A stretch of 64,000 bases of DNA from Paracoccus sp. DMF-8 (GTDB lineage Bacteria > Pseudomonadota > Alphaproteobacteria > Rhodobacterales > Rhodobacteraceae). The notes below the pieces were generated by a model. It saw only the letters and a program-made list of their open reading frames with translations. It did no database searches and had not been told where the DNA came from. The translations under genes were made by a program, and so were the position numbers. The stretch spans positions 62,001 to 126,000 of the forward strand of contig NZ_JARJHL010000010.1 in the NCBI RefSeq assembly GCF_029309835.1, read 5' to 3'. Every line of letters begins with the position of its first letter. Position 1 is the stretch's first letter. Shown here one piece after another: positions 21,933 to 27,401 of this stretch.

Positions 21933-23340
21933 TCAGCCCAACTGATCCTGTAGCCTGGCCAAGGTTTCTTCCCGGCCAAGCGCGGTCATCATGTCGAATA
22001 CACTGGGGGTCGATGTGCGACCGGCCAAAGCAGAGCGTAGCGGTGCGGCGATCTTGCCCAGGCCCAGGCCCTGCGCGTCGGTCACCGCCTTGGCATTCGC
22101 TTCCAGTTCGTCCCGCTGCCAGTTAGCATTCTGCAGCGCGGCAGTCAATTCTTTCAGCATACCACGGGATACCGAATCCAGCGCGGCCAGCGCTTTTTCC
22201 TCGATTGCGACGGGACGCTCGATCATCGCGAAATGGGCTTGGTCCAGCAATGCGGGCAGGGTTTTCGCCTTTTCCTTCAGCAGGGGCAGAATCGAGGCGC
22301 AAACGTGACAATTGCGTGCCGTTCAGCGCGGGCTGGCCGGTTTCCGCAAGAAGCGCGCCCAGTTCCGCGATCAGCGCGGCGTCATCCATCTGCGCGATAT
22401 GCCAGCCGCTGACATGTTCCAGCTTCTTGAAGTCCAGCCGCGCCGGGGCCTTGCCGATTCCGTCCAGATCGAACCAGTCGCGGGCCTGCGCGTCGGTGAA
22501 CAGCTCGTCATCGCCATGGCTCCAGCCAAGGCGGGCCAGATAGTTGCGCATCGCCGCCGCCGGATAGCCAAGCGCCGCATATTCATGCAGCCCGACCGCG
22601 CCGTGGCGTTTCGACGGCTTCTTGCCGTCGGTGCCGTGGATCAGGGGAATATGGGCGAAAACCGGGATATCCCAGCCCATCGCCTGATAGATCTGGATCT
22701 GGCGCGCGGCATTGGTCAGGTGGTCGTCGCCCCGGATGATATGCGTCACGCCCATGTCGTGATCGTCCACGACTACCGCATGCATATAGGTCGGTGTCCC
22801 GTCCGAACGCAGCAGCACCATGTCGTCCAGCTGGTCATTGGCAAAGGTCACATCGCCCTGCACCGCATCGCGCACGATGGTCTGGCCTGCGCGCGGCGCC
22901 TTCAGCCGGATGACATGGGGCGCATCGGGCCAGGTCGCGGGATCCGCGTCGCGCCAGGGCGACAGGAACAGGGTGCTGCGCCCCTCGGCCTTGGCGGATT
23001 CGCGAAACGAGGTGATTTCCTCGGGCGTCGAATAGCAGCGATAGGCGCTGCCGTTGGCCAGCATCTCCAGCGCGACTTCGGCATGGCGGTCGCGGCCTTC
23101 GAACTGGCTGACGGGGGTGCCGTTCCAGTCAAGACCCAGCCATTCCAGACCCTTCAAAATCGCCTCGGTTGCTTCGGGGGTGGAACGGGCGCGGTCGGTA
23201 TCCTCGATCCGCAGCAGGAATTTCCCGCCCCGGCCGCGTGCGAAAAGCCAGTTGAACAGTGCGGTGCGTGCGCCGCCGATATGAAGATAGCCGGTAGGGG
23301 AAGGGGCGAACCGGGTGACGACGGGCTTGTCTGCAGTCAT
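21933..23340 (-). CDS. gltX: Glutamyl-tRNA synthetase, frameshifted
   Basis: Charges tRNA-Glu; about 468 residues. The HIGH-type motif is in [12 protein letters not shown], and the KMSKS-type motif is [11 protein letters not shown]. One extra base near 22299, after QLSRLR, shifts the anticodon-binding domain, which continues [12 protein letters not shown] and ends LARLQDQLG. Alphaproteobacteria often carry two GltX forms, one of which misacylates tRNA-Gln; this sequence alone does not say which this is. A tRNA-Glu gene is elsewhere in the window at 47052. Confidence 0.93.
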
Positions 23341-23458: not shown

Positions 23459-25755
23459 GTGACATCGGTTGCCGAACCGTTAACGGGGCACATCCCGGCT
23501 GCCAAAAGTGGCAGGGCGCAGGCGCCTGCGCGGGTGGTGCCTCGGGTGTCGCAGATCACAAGGGCGGGCTTTGTGGTCTGGGTGCCGTTCTGGCTGGCGG
23601 TCGGGATCGGGCTGTGGTTTTCGCTGCAGCAGGAACCGGGGCCGGCCTTTTACGCCGCCGTGTCGCTGGTGTTTCTTCTGGCGCTGGCCGGGGCTGTTCT
23701 GCCCCGTTTCGTGCGGTTTTTGCCTGACGACCGGGCGGGTTCAGATCAGATCATCCTGGGCTGTTTCGTGGTCTGCCTGGTCACGGGCGGCGCGCTGCTG
23801 GCCGGGCTGCGGTCGCATATGGTTGCCGCCCCGGTGATGACCTACCGCTATTATGGCCCGGTCGAGGGGCGGGTGGTGATGATCGACCGCTCGGCCCGCG
23901 ACCAGGTCGAGAATCACGCTGGACCATGTGGTTTTGCGCCATACCGCCCCGTCGCGCACGCCGGAAAAGGTGCGGATTTCCCTGATGGGAACAGCGAATG
24001 CGCCCGCGCCGGATGTGCCGGAACCGGGCGAGCATGTCATGCTGACCGCGCATCTGGGGCCGCCGCCCGGCCGTCCGAACCGGGCGGTTTCGATTTTCGG
24101 CGCAATGCCTGGTTCCGAAAGCCTTGGGGCGGTGGAGCTATACCCGCACGCCGATCCTGCGCGCAGGCCCGGCGCAACGGGGCGGCACGATGGCGCTGCA
24201 CCGGCTGCGTATGCAGCTGTCGCAGGCCATGCAGGACCGCATCGGGGGGCAGGCGGGGGCGGTGGCTGCGGCGCTGATGACCGGCGACCGCTCGGGCATT
24301 GCCGAGGCTACGAATGAGGTCATGCGGATTTCCAGCCTCTACCACATCATCTCGATTTCCGGGCTGCATATGACGATGCTCGCGGCTTTCGTCTATGGCA
24401 CGCTGCGTTTTTTTGGGGTGTGCGTGGTCGCGGTGATGGCGCATCTGCGCGGCGGCCCGATGGCGCCACCCTTGCACAAGATCGCGGCGGGGGGCGCGAT
24501 TCTGGCCTCGGCGGGGTATCTGTGGCTGTCGGGGGGCGGGGTCGCGACGGAACGCGCCTTCATCATGGTTGCGGTCATGCTGTTCGCGATTCTGGTCGAC
24601 ATGCGGGCGATTTCCCTGCGCACCGTCGCCATCGCCGCCGTGATCGTCCTTGTTCTGGGCCCCGAGGCCCTGACGACGCCCGGTTTCCAGATGAGCTTTG
24701 CCGCGACCGTGGTGCTGGTCCTGATGTCCCATCCCTGGCGCGCGGTTTCGGCCCATCTGCCGCGATGGAGCCATGCGATCCTGCTGCTGTTCCTGACCTC
24801 TGTCTTTGCGGGGCTGGCGACCGGTCCGCTGGCTGCGGCGCAATTCGGGCGGATCGCACCCTATGGGCTCCTAGCCAATGCGCTGGTCGTGCCGGTGATG
24901 GGGGCTTTCGTGATGAACATGGGCGTGATCGCCCTGTTTCTGGCGCCTTTCGGGCTGGAGGGAATCTCGCTGTGGGTCATGGGGCTGGGCACGACATGGA
25001 TGCTGTGGGTCGCCGAATGGATCGCGGGCTGGAATGGCGCGGACCTGCTGGTGCCCCTGCCGCCCGGCCCGGTCCTGCCGCTGATCGGCACCGGCCTGAT
25101 GCTGACGACATTGACAGCGCGCAGGATGTGGCGCTGGCGCGGATGCCGGCTGCCCGCACCGGTGTTTTCGGTTGGAATTCTGATGCTTGCCGCGGGTTTC
25201 ATGATCTGGATCGGCGCCCGCCGTCCCGATGTCCTGATCTCGGCGCAGGGTGATGCGGTGGGCATCATGACCCCGGCGGGGCGAGCCATGTCCAAGGAAA
25301 GCGGCGGTGCCTTTCACGCCGAAAACTGGCTGGCCGATGACGGGGATGCCGCCAGCCAGGCGCGTTCCGCCGCACGACCGGGGCCGGACCCGTTATGGCA
25401 GGGACCGCGCAACCGGCGCAGCGCGATGGTCGATGCTGGCGGGCAGGCGTTGCGCTTTGTCCACGCCACAGGGAAATCCGCGCCGGATGCCGCGACTGCA
25501 GCCTGCGGCCCCGCGACCGTCGTGATTGTGGATGACCGCGCCGGGCAATCCGGCGATGCCGCATGCCTGCTGCTGGACCTGTCCATCCTGCAGCAAAGCG
25601 GCGCGATCGCGATCTGGTTCGACCGGGGGCGCCCGGTCGTTGCCACGACGGCCCAACGCGGCGGAAGCCGCGACTGGTCACCCGGTCAACCGGGTGCAGG
25701 ACGGGCTTTGGCGGCGGGAATGATGGCGGCGTTAACCGCATCTTCAGGAAATTGA
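23459..25755 (+). CDS. comEC: ComEC/Rec2-family DNA-uptake channel, several frameshifts
   Basis: Large inner-membrane protein of about 765 residues that passes single-stranded DNA during transformation; in Rhodobacter it is used by cells receiving gene transfer agent DNA. Start is GTG at 23459 after AAGGACAAGGATAAGG. Two or three N-terminal helices lead to an OB-like region, then the Competence core with HIISISGLHMTML, GFQMSFAATVVL and many helices. The C-terminal 200 residues replace or degrade the usual metallo-beta-lactamase domain (no HxHxDH seen). At least three indels lie between 23900 and 24130. The rest is open. Confidence 0.88.
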
Positions 25756-25818
25756 TGAAATAAAAGGGAAATGGATTATCCCTTTCCTTTCGAAAGGGTC
25801 AGCAAGAACGGCAGTTTC

Positions 25819-26391
25819 ATGCATGGTATGGTCAATCGCTCGATCGAGCATTTCCTGCGCGCGACCTATGGCGACGCCATCTGGCATGAAATCGCGCAGG
25901 CGGGCGGGATTGATGCCGCTGGCTTCAACGGGATGCGTCAATATCCGGATGACATCACCCAGGCCATGCTGCAGGCGGCCAGCGCAACCCTGGGGAAAAC
26001 GGCTTGCGACATTCTGGAAGATACCGGCGCCTGGCTTGTGCAGATCGAGGCGATGCGCCGCCTGCTGCGTTTCAGCGGCGGCAAATTCTCTGAATTCGTC
26101 CTTGCGCTGGAAGAATTGCCGGCGCGTGCGCGTCTGGTGCTGCCCGACCTTGAAATCCCGCCCCTGATGGTCGCCCAGATCGAACCCGACGTTTACCGTA
26201 TCTACGGGGAGGGTTGGGGCGGGCTGCTCTGGATCGTTTCCGGGGCGCTGCGTGGCATGGCCGATGATTACGGGGTGCTTGCCCTGATCGAAGCGGGCGG
26301 CGCCGGCGTCGAAATGCGCGTCCTGATGCAGGAATATACCCAGGGCCGCCCCTTTGCTTTCGCGCCCGCGACGATATCGGGGCAGGGATGA
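25819..26391 (+). CDS. H-NOX-like (heme NO-binding) domain protein with degenerate heme site
   Basis: 190 residues covering one H-NOX domain. The start at 25819 (MHGMVNRSIEHFLRATYG) matches the canonical H-NOX N-terminus. The body follows the family through QAASATLGK, EDTGAWLV, LLRFSGGKFSEF and VLPDLEIP. At the position of the proximal heme histidine the sequence is EELPARARL, so His appears replaced by Pro101. In the YxSxR propionate motif Tyr126 is kept but Ser and Arg are Ile128 and Gly130. It may bind heme poorly or not at all. It overlaps the diguanylate cyclase by ATGA, so the two probably work together. Confidence 0.82.
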   Translation: MHGMVNRSIEHFLRATYGDAIWHEIAQAGGIDAAGFNGMRQYPDDITQAMLQAASATLGKTACDILEDTGAWLVQIEAMRRLLRFSGGKFSEFVLALEELPARARLVLPDLEIPPLMVAQIEPDVYRIYGEGWGGLLWIVSGALRGMADDYGVLALIEAGGAGVEMRVLMQEYTQGRPFAFAPATISGQG

Positions 26392-27401
26392 GCGGGATGG
26401 TTTCCATCAGCTTCGACTGCGTCGCGCGCCTGCTGCCGATGGCGCTGCACCTGGGACCAGAGGGCGCGATCCATCACGCGGGGGCGACGATGCGCCGTCT
26501 GATCCCGGGGCGAAGCCATTTCAACCACGCCTTCATGATCGACAGGCCGCGCGACGTGACCGATGGTTTCGCCGGGCTGGCGCAGGATCTGCCCGATATC
26601 AGCCGGTTTTTCCTGCGCCTGCGCGATCATCCCGGCACGGTGCTGCGCGGACATGGCATCCGCCTGCAGGACGGGGGGATTGTGCTGAACCTCGGCTTTG
26701 GCGTGGGGCTGCCCGATGCCGTGCGGCAGTTTTCGCTGACCGATACCGATTTTACGCCCGCCGATCTCGCGATGGAGCTGTTGTTTCTGCATGAGGCGAA
26801 CACGGCCGTGCAAAAAGAACTCGCGAATTTCAACCAGCACACGGAAAACGCCCGCCGCGTCGCCGAGATGCAGGCCTATACTGATTCGCTGACCGGGGTG
26901 AACAACCGCCGGGGGTTCGAGATGGCCTTGGAAATTGCCGTGCGGCAGGCGGAACAGATGAAATTTTCGATAGCGCATCTGGATCTCGATCATTTCAAAG
27001 AGGTCAATGACAGGCTGGGACACGCCGCGGGCGATGAGGTGTTGCAGCGCGTCGCCGCGATCCTGCGCGAGGAAACCCGGGCGACCGACACGGTGTCGCG
27101 GATCGGCGGCGATGAGTTCACGCTGATTCTGGCCGCGCCGCGCGGTTCGGAACAGCTGCGCAAATTCGGCGAGCGCATCATCGCGCGCATCGAACGGCCC
27201 ATGATGGTGATGGGGCGGGAAATCCGGATTTCGGTCAGTATGGGGATCACCGAATCCACCCATTATGCTAGGGCGGATGCGGCGCAGATGTTGCTTGACG
27301 CGGATAGGGCGCTTTATGCGGCGAAAAACGCCGGTCGCGGGTGCGTGGTCCTGTTTCGGGACTGTCCTTGCACCGGCGCGAAACCGGATGTGATCCGATG
27401 A
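26388..27401 (+). CDS. HNOBA-type sensor diguanylate cyclase
   Basis: 337 residues. The N-terminal part (about 1-130) resembles the HNOBA domain that pairs with H-NOX proteins. A helical signalling linker (FLHEANTAVQKELANFNQH) leads to the GGDEF domain. The active-site GGDEF is intact at residues 240-244, so it should make cyclic di-GMP from GTP. An RxxD inhibitory site (RATD) lies five residues before it, implying product inhibition. It is translationally coupled to the H-NOX-like gene. Similar H-NOX/cyclase pairs control biofilm in relatives such as Dinoroseobacter. No signal peptide or membrane segment. Confidence 0.9.
   Translation: MSGMVSISFDCVARLLPMALHLGPEGAIHHAGATMRRLIPGRSHFNHAFMIDRPRDVTDGFAGLAQDLPDISRFFLRLRDHPGTVLRGHGIRLQDGGIVLNLGFGVGLPDAVRQFSLTDTDFTPADLAMELLFLHEANTAVQKELANFNQHTENARRVAEMQAYTDSLTGVNNRRGFEMALEIAVRQAEQMKFSIAHLDLDHFKEVNDRLGHAAGDEVLQRVAAILREETRATDTVSRIGGDEFTLILAAPRGSEQLRKFGERIIARIERPMMVMGREIRISVSMGITESTHYARADAAQMLLDADRALYAAKNAGRGCVVLFRDCPCTGAKPDVIR

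Follow-up and report, generated by a model that had tools for sequence, protein, structure and literature searches.

The best described relatives of the gene pair analyzed here come from Paracoccus denitrificans and Dinoroseobacter shibae. The H-NOX protein of P. denitrificans is reported to lack the axial His, as does that of R. sphaeroides (Kumar and Spiro, 2017; PMC5588039). According to the same report, an hnoX mutant is biofilm-deficient and a dgcAB mutant overproduces biofilm, and its authors proposed inhibition of DgcA by H-NOX in a model that keeps NO (PMC5588039). Later work on this organism describes an increase of acyl-homoserine lactone in a delta-hnox strain grown to high cell density, and c-di-GMP is stated there to have escaped measurement (PMC12582929). 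The name 'Group 5' was given to such proteins in a 2022 review, by whose account less than 10% of them have the His, most have Pro and no Cys is conserved; the review asks how Group 5 senses anything (PMC8738867). In D. shibae, NO-bound H-NOX is reported, in work that reviews cite as Bedrunka 2018, to inhibit Dgc1 (PMC8846402; PMC7232146). The P. denitrificans and Dinoroseobacter proteins are both called NO sensors, yet they differ at the very residue on which heme-based NO sensing depends. Two more systems bear on H-NOX function without heme. The H-NOX domain of the soluble guanylate cyclase (sGC) alpha subunit is described as heme-free, within an enzyme that has PAS, coiled-coil and cyclase domains (PMC8196705), and a heme-free redox form of Vibrio cholerae H-NOX is reported to signal in vitro (PMC7108781). 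The Vibrio protein differs from the one analyzed here in having the proximal His and a zinc-Cys site and in regulating a histidine kinase. A literature search with thin coverage of subscription papers found no heme-binding work on a Pro-type member, and no account, though one may be in print, of the His that sets D. shibae apart, or of the shortened and fused forms described below.

The window, a 64,000-nucleotide stretch of a Paracoccus sp. DMF-8 contig (NZ_JARJHL010000010.1), carries on its + strand an hnoX-like ORF at 25819-26391 that encodes 190 aa and ends with the stop codon 26389-26391. A GGDEF ORF of 337 aa (26388-27401, +) opens inside it, and the hnoX stop and the cyclase start share the sequence ATGA (26388-26391, +). 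The predicted coupling to a GGDEF enzyme by overlap is therefore real, and the overlap is 4 nt long. At the position of the hnoX start, 160 of the 165 group proteins introduced below have Met and five have Val, so that 25819 is to be preferred as the start over an in-frame ATG at 25771. The window genome (18 contigs, 84.5% complete) has a single HNOB match at E<=1, and this is the hnoX ORF. The gene order gltX, comEC, hnoX, GGDEF gene is found both in P. ferrooxidans and in the window. Compared with the P. ferrooxidans proteins, gltX and comEC of the window are each split over two frames (at about 22300-22358 and at 24118); the frames of hnoX and of the cyclase gene are unbroken. Since gltX is normally essential, base errors of the assembly are likely at gltX and comEC.

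The hnoX product matches the HNOB profile (PF07700) with 68 bits (E 1.2e-18, against a cut-off of 25.5 bits), and this match, the group alignments and an AlphaFold model identify it as an hnoX orthologue, probably of Group 5. The model (m6526bbf235cc, window 25819-26388; pLDDT 91.4, 84 aligned sequences) was closest in a fold comparison to human sGC beta1 (8hbh_B, Z 19.8, rmsd 2.3, 170 aligned), which tied with Nostoc H-NOX (2o09_A, Z 19.1, rmsd 2.5, 169 aligned). The predicted H-NOX fold is kept despite the ligand loss. In a phmmer alignment with Alr2278, the Nostoc H-NOX, 'LDNLHARV' stands over 'LEELPARA', which puts Pro101 (codon CCG, 26119-26121, +) at the place of the proximal heme ligand, His105 of Alr2278. 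The corresponding MAFFT column has Pro in the window protein and His in Alr2278 and in 23/23 other HNOB proteins. The helix that bears Pro101 runs continuously through 90-107 in the model. The original prediction of a Pro for the proximal His is borne out by both alignments, and the alignment with true H-NOX proteins that it called for places no His at this position. It had also read YxSxR as changed to YxIxG. Here the loss of the motif stands and the register does not, as the proposed Y126-x-I-x-G130 lies about four residues early. The MAFFT columns of Tyr134, Ser136 and Arg138 of Alr2278 hold Gly130, Gly132 and Trp133 of the window protein, within the residues 130-133 (GEGW; 26206-26217, +) where YxSxR would stand; the local phmmer alignment gives Y-x-E-x-W in this region, and neither alignment gives YxSxR. 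Judged by sequence, the heme-ligand positions of the window H-NOX are replaced, and it lacks both marks of a heme-binding, NO-sensing H-NOX, the proximal His and YxSxR. The marks of the fold family are present. The hinge Gly pair, G70 and G142, is found in 165/165 group proteins and Pro114 (26158-26160, +), at the position of Pro118 in Alr2278, in 163/165; the role of the hinge glycines and of the proximal-pocket Pro in H-NOX is described elsewhere (PMC7108781). Because Pro114 and both hinge Gly residues are kept, heme could still enter the window H-NOX.

We consider it probable that the window H-NOX is heme-free and regulates its own cyclase by protein contact, in a way comparable to the sGC alpha H-NOX. 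The sequence points that support this are the loss of His and YxSxR, the near-invariant residues specific to the group, the pairing with GGDEF proteins and the HNOBA domain in the partners. Erosion of the distal subdomain, in-frame fusions, the P. denitrificans phenotypes and the sGC alpha precedent lend further support.

Relatives of the pair were searched at three levels. The window protein found matches, some of them partial, in 97/101 genomes of the genus. A profile built from 36 group proteins found matches, a few of them weak, in 216/295 genomes of the family, and across the class the same profile had matches in 11/385 genomes; five of these are the window genome and members of the family, and the six others scored below 100 bits. 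Going by these matches, gene pairs of this type are common in Rhodobacteraceae. Residues were compared in 165 non-redundant group proteins (36 from Paracoccus and 129 others) that score above 150 bits with near-full profile coverage. This sample leans to the better-scoring matches, since the places listed by the searches were the best-scoring ones, and weaker members are under-sampled in it. It was drawn from 177 ORFs above 150 bits by dropping identical sequences and a P. cavernae gene whose frame is broken (L056, L064); the P. denitrificans protein (L214) was dropped as identical to L047. An interrupted gene (L211) fell below the score bar in both halves, and the D. shibae protein (L216) and 14 further Paracoccus loci were fetched later, so these also stand outside the 165. 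In P. cavernae (L064), hnoX and the cyclase gene are both spread over several frames, by decay or by sequencing error. The comparison set consisted of the 23 other HNOB proteins, retrieved by the group profile, and Alr2278, all aligned with MAFFT.

The proximal column of the 165 proteins holds Pro in 115, His in 15, Gln in 13, Arg in five, Ser in four, Lys, Gly and Asn in three each, and Glu and Ala in two each. The replacement is hence shared by relatives, as the original prediction had supposed it might be, but it is not uniform, with ten different residues at the site. In the YxSxR columns Tyr occurs in none, Ser in 32 and Arg in seven, while all three residues are present in 23/23 other HNOB proteins; a Y.S.R string does occur in this region of a single group protein (L050), out of register. 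The Pro majority, the few His, the Pro of the window protein and the lack of a conserved Cys (the highest Cys column, at window residue 130, has 67/165) agree with the published description of Group 5, and the P. denitrificans H-NOX, the source of the published Group 5 similarity network, scores 259 bits with our group profile. The window H-NOX is probably a member of a known group, and the idea of a new, separate sensor class is superseded by what is already in print (PMC5588039; PMC8738867). No CtrA box (TTAA-N7-TTAA) was found within 250 bp upstream in any of the 165.

In variability the proximal site stands near the middle, with 49% of columns more conserved, which fits a residue that has no fixed role. 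A single base change separates most of the codons found there (CCN, CAR, CAY, CGC), and this would fit drift at a weakly constrained position. Elsewhere the group proteins have R80, R84 and D149 in all 165, E67 and D68 in 164, and further near-invariant residues at W22, D150, Y151, G152 and F179. In all six close Paracoccus pairs, three of them Pro-Pro, dN/dS is 0.10-0.25, which means that selection acts on the whole protein. These values, the group-specific residues and the wide occurrence in genus and family make it very improbable that the H-NOX is a leftover turning into a pseudogene, although the loss of the ligand residues, the stop codon that interrupts L211 and the frame breaks of the P. 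cavernae gene could be taken as signs of decay.

A different possibility is that heme, or NO-heme, is still held by hydrophobic contacts and some other residue, and that NO binding leads to cyclase inhibition. A candidate for such a residue is His2, which is specific to the group and stands where helix A begins. It is found in 149/165 group proteins and in none of the 23 others, which have Lys (15), Tyr (6), Gln (1) or Leu (1) there, and going by helix geometry it presumably lies near the heme pocket. However, His2 is kept equally in members that have the proximal His (13/15), and it was rejected as a compensating ligand. The highest His column besides it, at window residue 76, has 85/165, and Ile in the window. 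The NO physiology of the P. denitrificans hnoX mutants (PMC5588039), the retained Pro114 and hinge Gly residues and a match to copper nitrite reductase in the window genome, which can for this reason probably make NO, also speak for an NO sensor. The group-wide loss of YxSxR speaks against it, and so do the nitrite reductase counts and the shortened relatives given below. On this evidence we regard a heme-based NO sensor as unlikely. It should be added, against the heme-free regulator that we prefer, that NO is kept in the model of the P. denitrificans authors and that later work failed to measure c-di-GMP in that organism (PMC12582929).

The published NO evidence comes from a protein of the other type. 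The D. shibae H-NOX (L216) resembles the window protein in matching the group profile (185 bits), in being without YxSxR and in having an ORF that matches the window cyclase downstream, but it keeps the proximal His ('LDDLHDRARLA'), and NO-bound inhibition of its cyclase is what the reviews report. We take L216 to be Dshi_2815, as the match was found in the D. shibae genome. The P. denitrificans protein (HnoX/DgcA, Pden_3719/3720), from another species of the same genus as the window, is 44.4% identical to the window H-NOX over 186 residues; like it, it has Pro at the proximal site ('RELPGRVKLV') and an adjoining GGDEF ORF. Since the D. shibae protein is of the His type, its response to NO should not be transferred to Pro types without a test. 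A report of NO responsiveness for a member of the subfamily that has the His nevertheless counts against the heme-free reading.

Presence of the His was also compared with the capacity for NO production, in 164 entries from 163 genomes. A match to nirK or nirS (thresholds TIGR02376 E<=1e-100 and PF02239 E<=1e-105; several genomes are incomplete) is present in the genome of 9/15 His-type and 54/149 other entries, so that 95/149 non-His entries come from genomes without such a match. One genome with a partial PF02239 match (G225, E 2.2e-36) was counted as negative; P. ferrooxidans (L215) stands outside the 164, and so does D. shibae, a His type with a PF02239 match. Fisher tests gave p 0.095 overall, 0.038 outside Paracoccus and 1.0 within it, and independent-pairs tests on the tree were not significant (median p 1). 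These figures were not counted as showing a link between His and NO production. As for the history of the site, a two-state model on a quick tree put 97.5% of the subtree likelihood on non-His at the root of the group, with 10 changes within the group by parsimony. The overall root with the outgroup, which is not monophyletic on this quick tree, slightly favours His. A His ancestor of the group was not adopted, and the His of the minority may have been either gained or retained.

A GGDEF ORF lies downstream of hnoX on the same strand in 165/165 loci, with the GGDEF motif in 164 and the inhibitory (I) site in 162. In 158/165 the match starts no farther than 150 nt from the hnoX stop, and in five further loci the cyclase ORF opens before the hnoX stop and the match begins later. 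In one locus (L066) the cyclase match runs only from residue 190 on, that is, over the C-terminal part, and in another (L059) about 0.8 kb lies between hnoX and the start of the GGDEF ORF, which sets this locus apart from the rest of the group. Among the 23 other HNOB loci, within the short flank examined, two (L002 and L011) have a downstream ORF that matches the window cyclase. At L219, of the same family and the same place as L002, the H-NOX lies beside a protein that matches window cyclase residues 9-315, as in the window, but it has His and YxSxR and its partner is longer, with a C-terminal part that looks EAL-like by eye. The window cyclase itself scores 143.5 bits with the GGDEF profile. 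Its active-site motif GGDEF (27105-27119, +) and its RxxD site, RATD (27078-27089, +), are intact, as first claimed, and it is predicted to be a diguanylate cyclase. Its model (pLDDT 93.1) has a 37-residue helix before GGDEF (residues 127-163; 26766-26876, +), between the GGDEF domain and an N-terminal HNOBA/PAS-like domain. HNOBA was found in 36/50 aligned partners at E<=1, with a best value of 3e-9; the window cyclase alone gave a weak match (E 0.1). The partner profile also matches PDB 2p04 and residues 206-375 of sGC beta1 (E 1.8e-5). The HNOBA assignment rests on these sequence profiles, as GGDEF domains took up the VIA-align result for the cyclase model, which says little about the N-terminal domain.

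From the HNOBA profile matches and the helix before GGDEF, the H-NOX/cyclase pair resembles a split soluble guanylate cyclase with diguanylate cyclase output. The HNOBA/PAS domain and coiled coil before the cyclase are shared with sGC, and in place of the class III guanylate cyclase domain there is GGDEF. The sGC alpha subunit is a single polypeptide whose N-terminal extension fills the pocket, whereas the window has two genes. If the pair works as we think probable, the Group-5 H-NOX fold would no longer use the Fe-His heme switch. It would dock, as in soluble guanylate cyclase, on the HNOBA (PAS-like) domain and coiled coil of the cyclase made with it, and would regulate, most likely restrain, that enzyme, so that docking sets c-di-GMP output. 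The direct contact between H-NOX and cyclase, its inhibitory sign and the absence of heme in the cell are inferred here. The input to the H-NOX may be another ligand in the old pocket, or there may be none.

The ligand branch of this reading supposes that the vacant pocket was taken by, for example, a fatty acid, an acyl-homoserine lactone or a hydrophobic metabolite, which sets cyclase activity. In its favour are purifying selection, the conserved fold and the presence of the gene in many genomes without an NO-forming nitrite reductase. The next fold matches after H-NOX proteins are TRAPP Bet3 proteins, one of them palmitate-bound (Z 8.2-9.4), though a Z of 8-9 can reflect a common arrangement, and the acyl-homoserine lactone rise reported for delta-hnox P. 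denitrificans (PMC12582929) may point the same way. Taken by itself, such a metabolite sensor seems to us quite unlikely.

Natural variants within Paracoccus also lend support to the contact-based, heme-free regulator. In 13 genomes of the genus the match began only at about residue 61-66, and 12 of these were fetched (G410 was left out); with two genomes taken for their long frame (G473, G482), they make up the 14 further loci. In 11/14, all from one Paracoccus subclade (L224-L229, L231-L233, L236, L237), the H-NOX has about 171 residues and is without 18-19 residues of the window protein (about 20-25 and 36-48), W22 included. Residues 20-48 are taken, by general H-NOX anatomy, to lie in the distal subdomain. 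The anatomy of this subdomain, with helices A-C, has been described (PMC7108781). All 11 keep Pro, their partners have both the GGDEF motif and the I-site, and Trp stands for R80 in each; another locus (L230) has a near full-length H-NOX with Pro. Partial deletion of the distal subdomain beside intact GGDEF partners argues, as far as sequence goes, against the need for a normal heme pocket, and so against the NO sensor considered above. The window protein, however, keeps the subdomain that these 11 have lost.

In the two long frames (L234:488-2122 and L235:380-2014, both on the reverse strand and counted on it; genomes G473 and G482), a Pro-type H-NOX and HNOBA-GGDEF form one 545-aa ORF. Such fusions support a physical linkage of H-NOX and cyclase. 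In both, the GGDEF motif is lost and the MADDYG motif departs, so they show linkage and not activity. With the Trp for R80 in the 11 shortened proteins, the altered MADDYG also means that the 'invariant' residues of the group are no absolutes. Counted against the heme-free reading are the loss of GGDEF in the fusions, the weak HNOBA match of the window cyclase and the atypical partners at L059 and L066. For studies of H-NOX function without heme, ready comparisons are offered by the contrast between His and Pro types, by the shortened forms from Paracoccus and by the fusions.

Because 216/295 family genomes have a match and a match to an NO-forming nitrite reductase is missing from many of the genomes sampled, part of the c-di-GMP control in the family may answer to some other signal. 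A wider view is possible, although we would lean against it for now. The pair would be a widespread c-di-GMP switch of Rhodobacteraceae in which H-NOX is no gas sensor, the emptied pocket binding another metabolite or transmitting a protein contact; His would reappear by drift in scattered lineages, and the NO control of D. shibae would be a trait of the His minority. HNOB genes of any kind occur in 296/394 family genomes, of which 34 have at least two copies by our own count of the listing. One genome (G246) has two group-5 H-NOX genes (L134 and L144).
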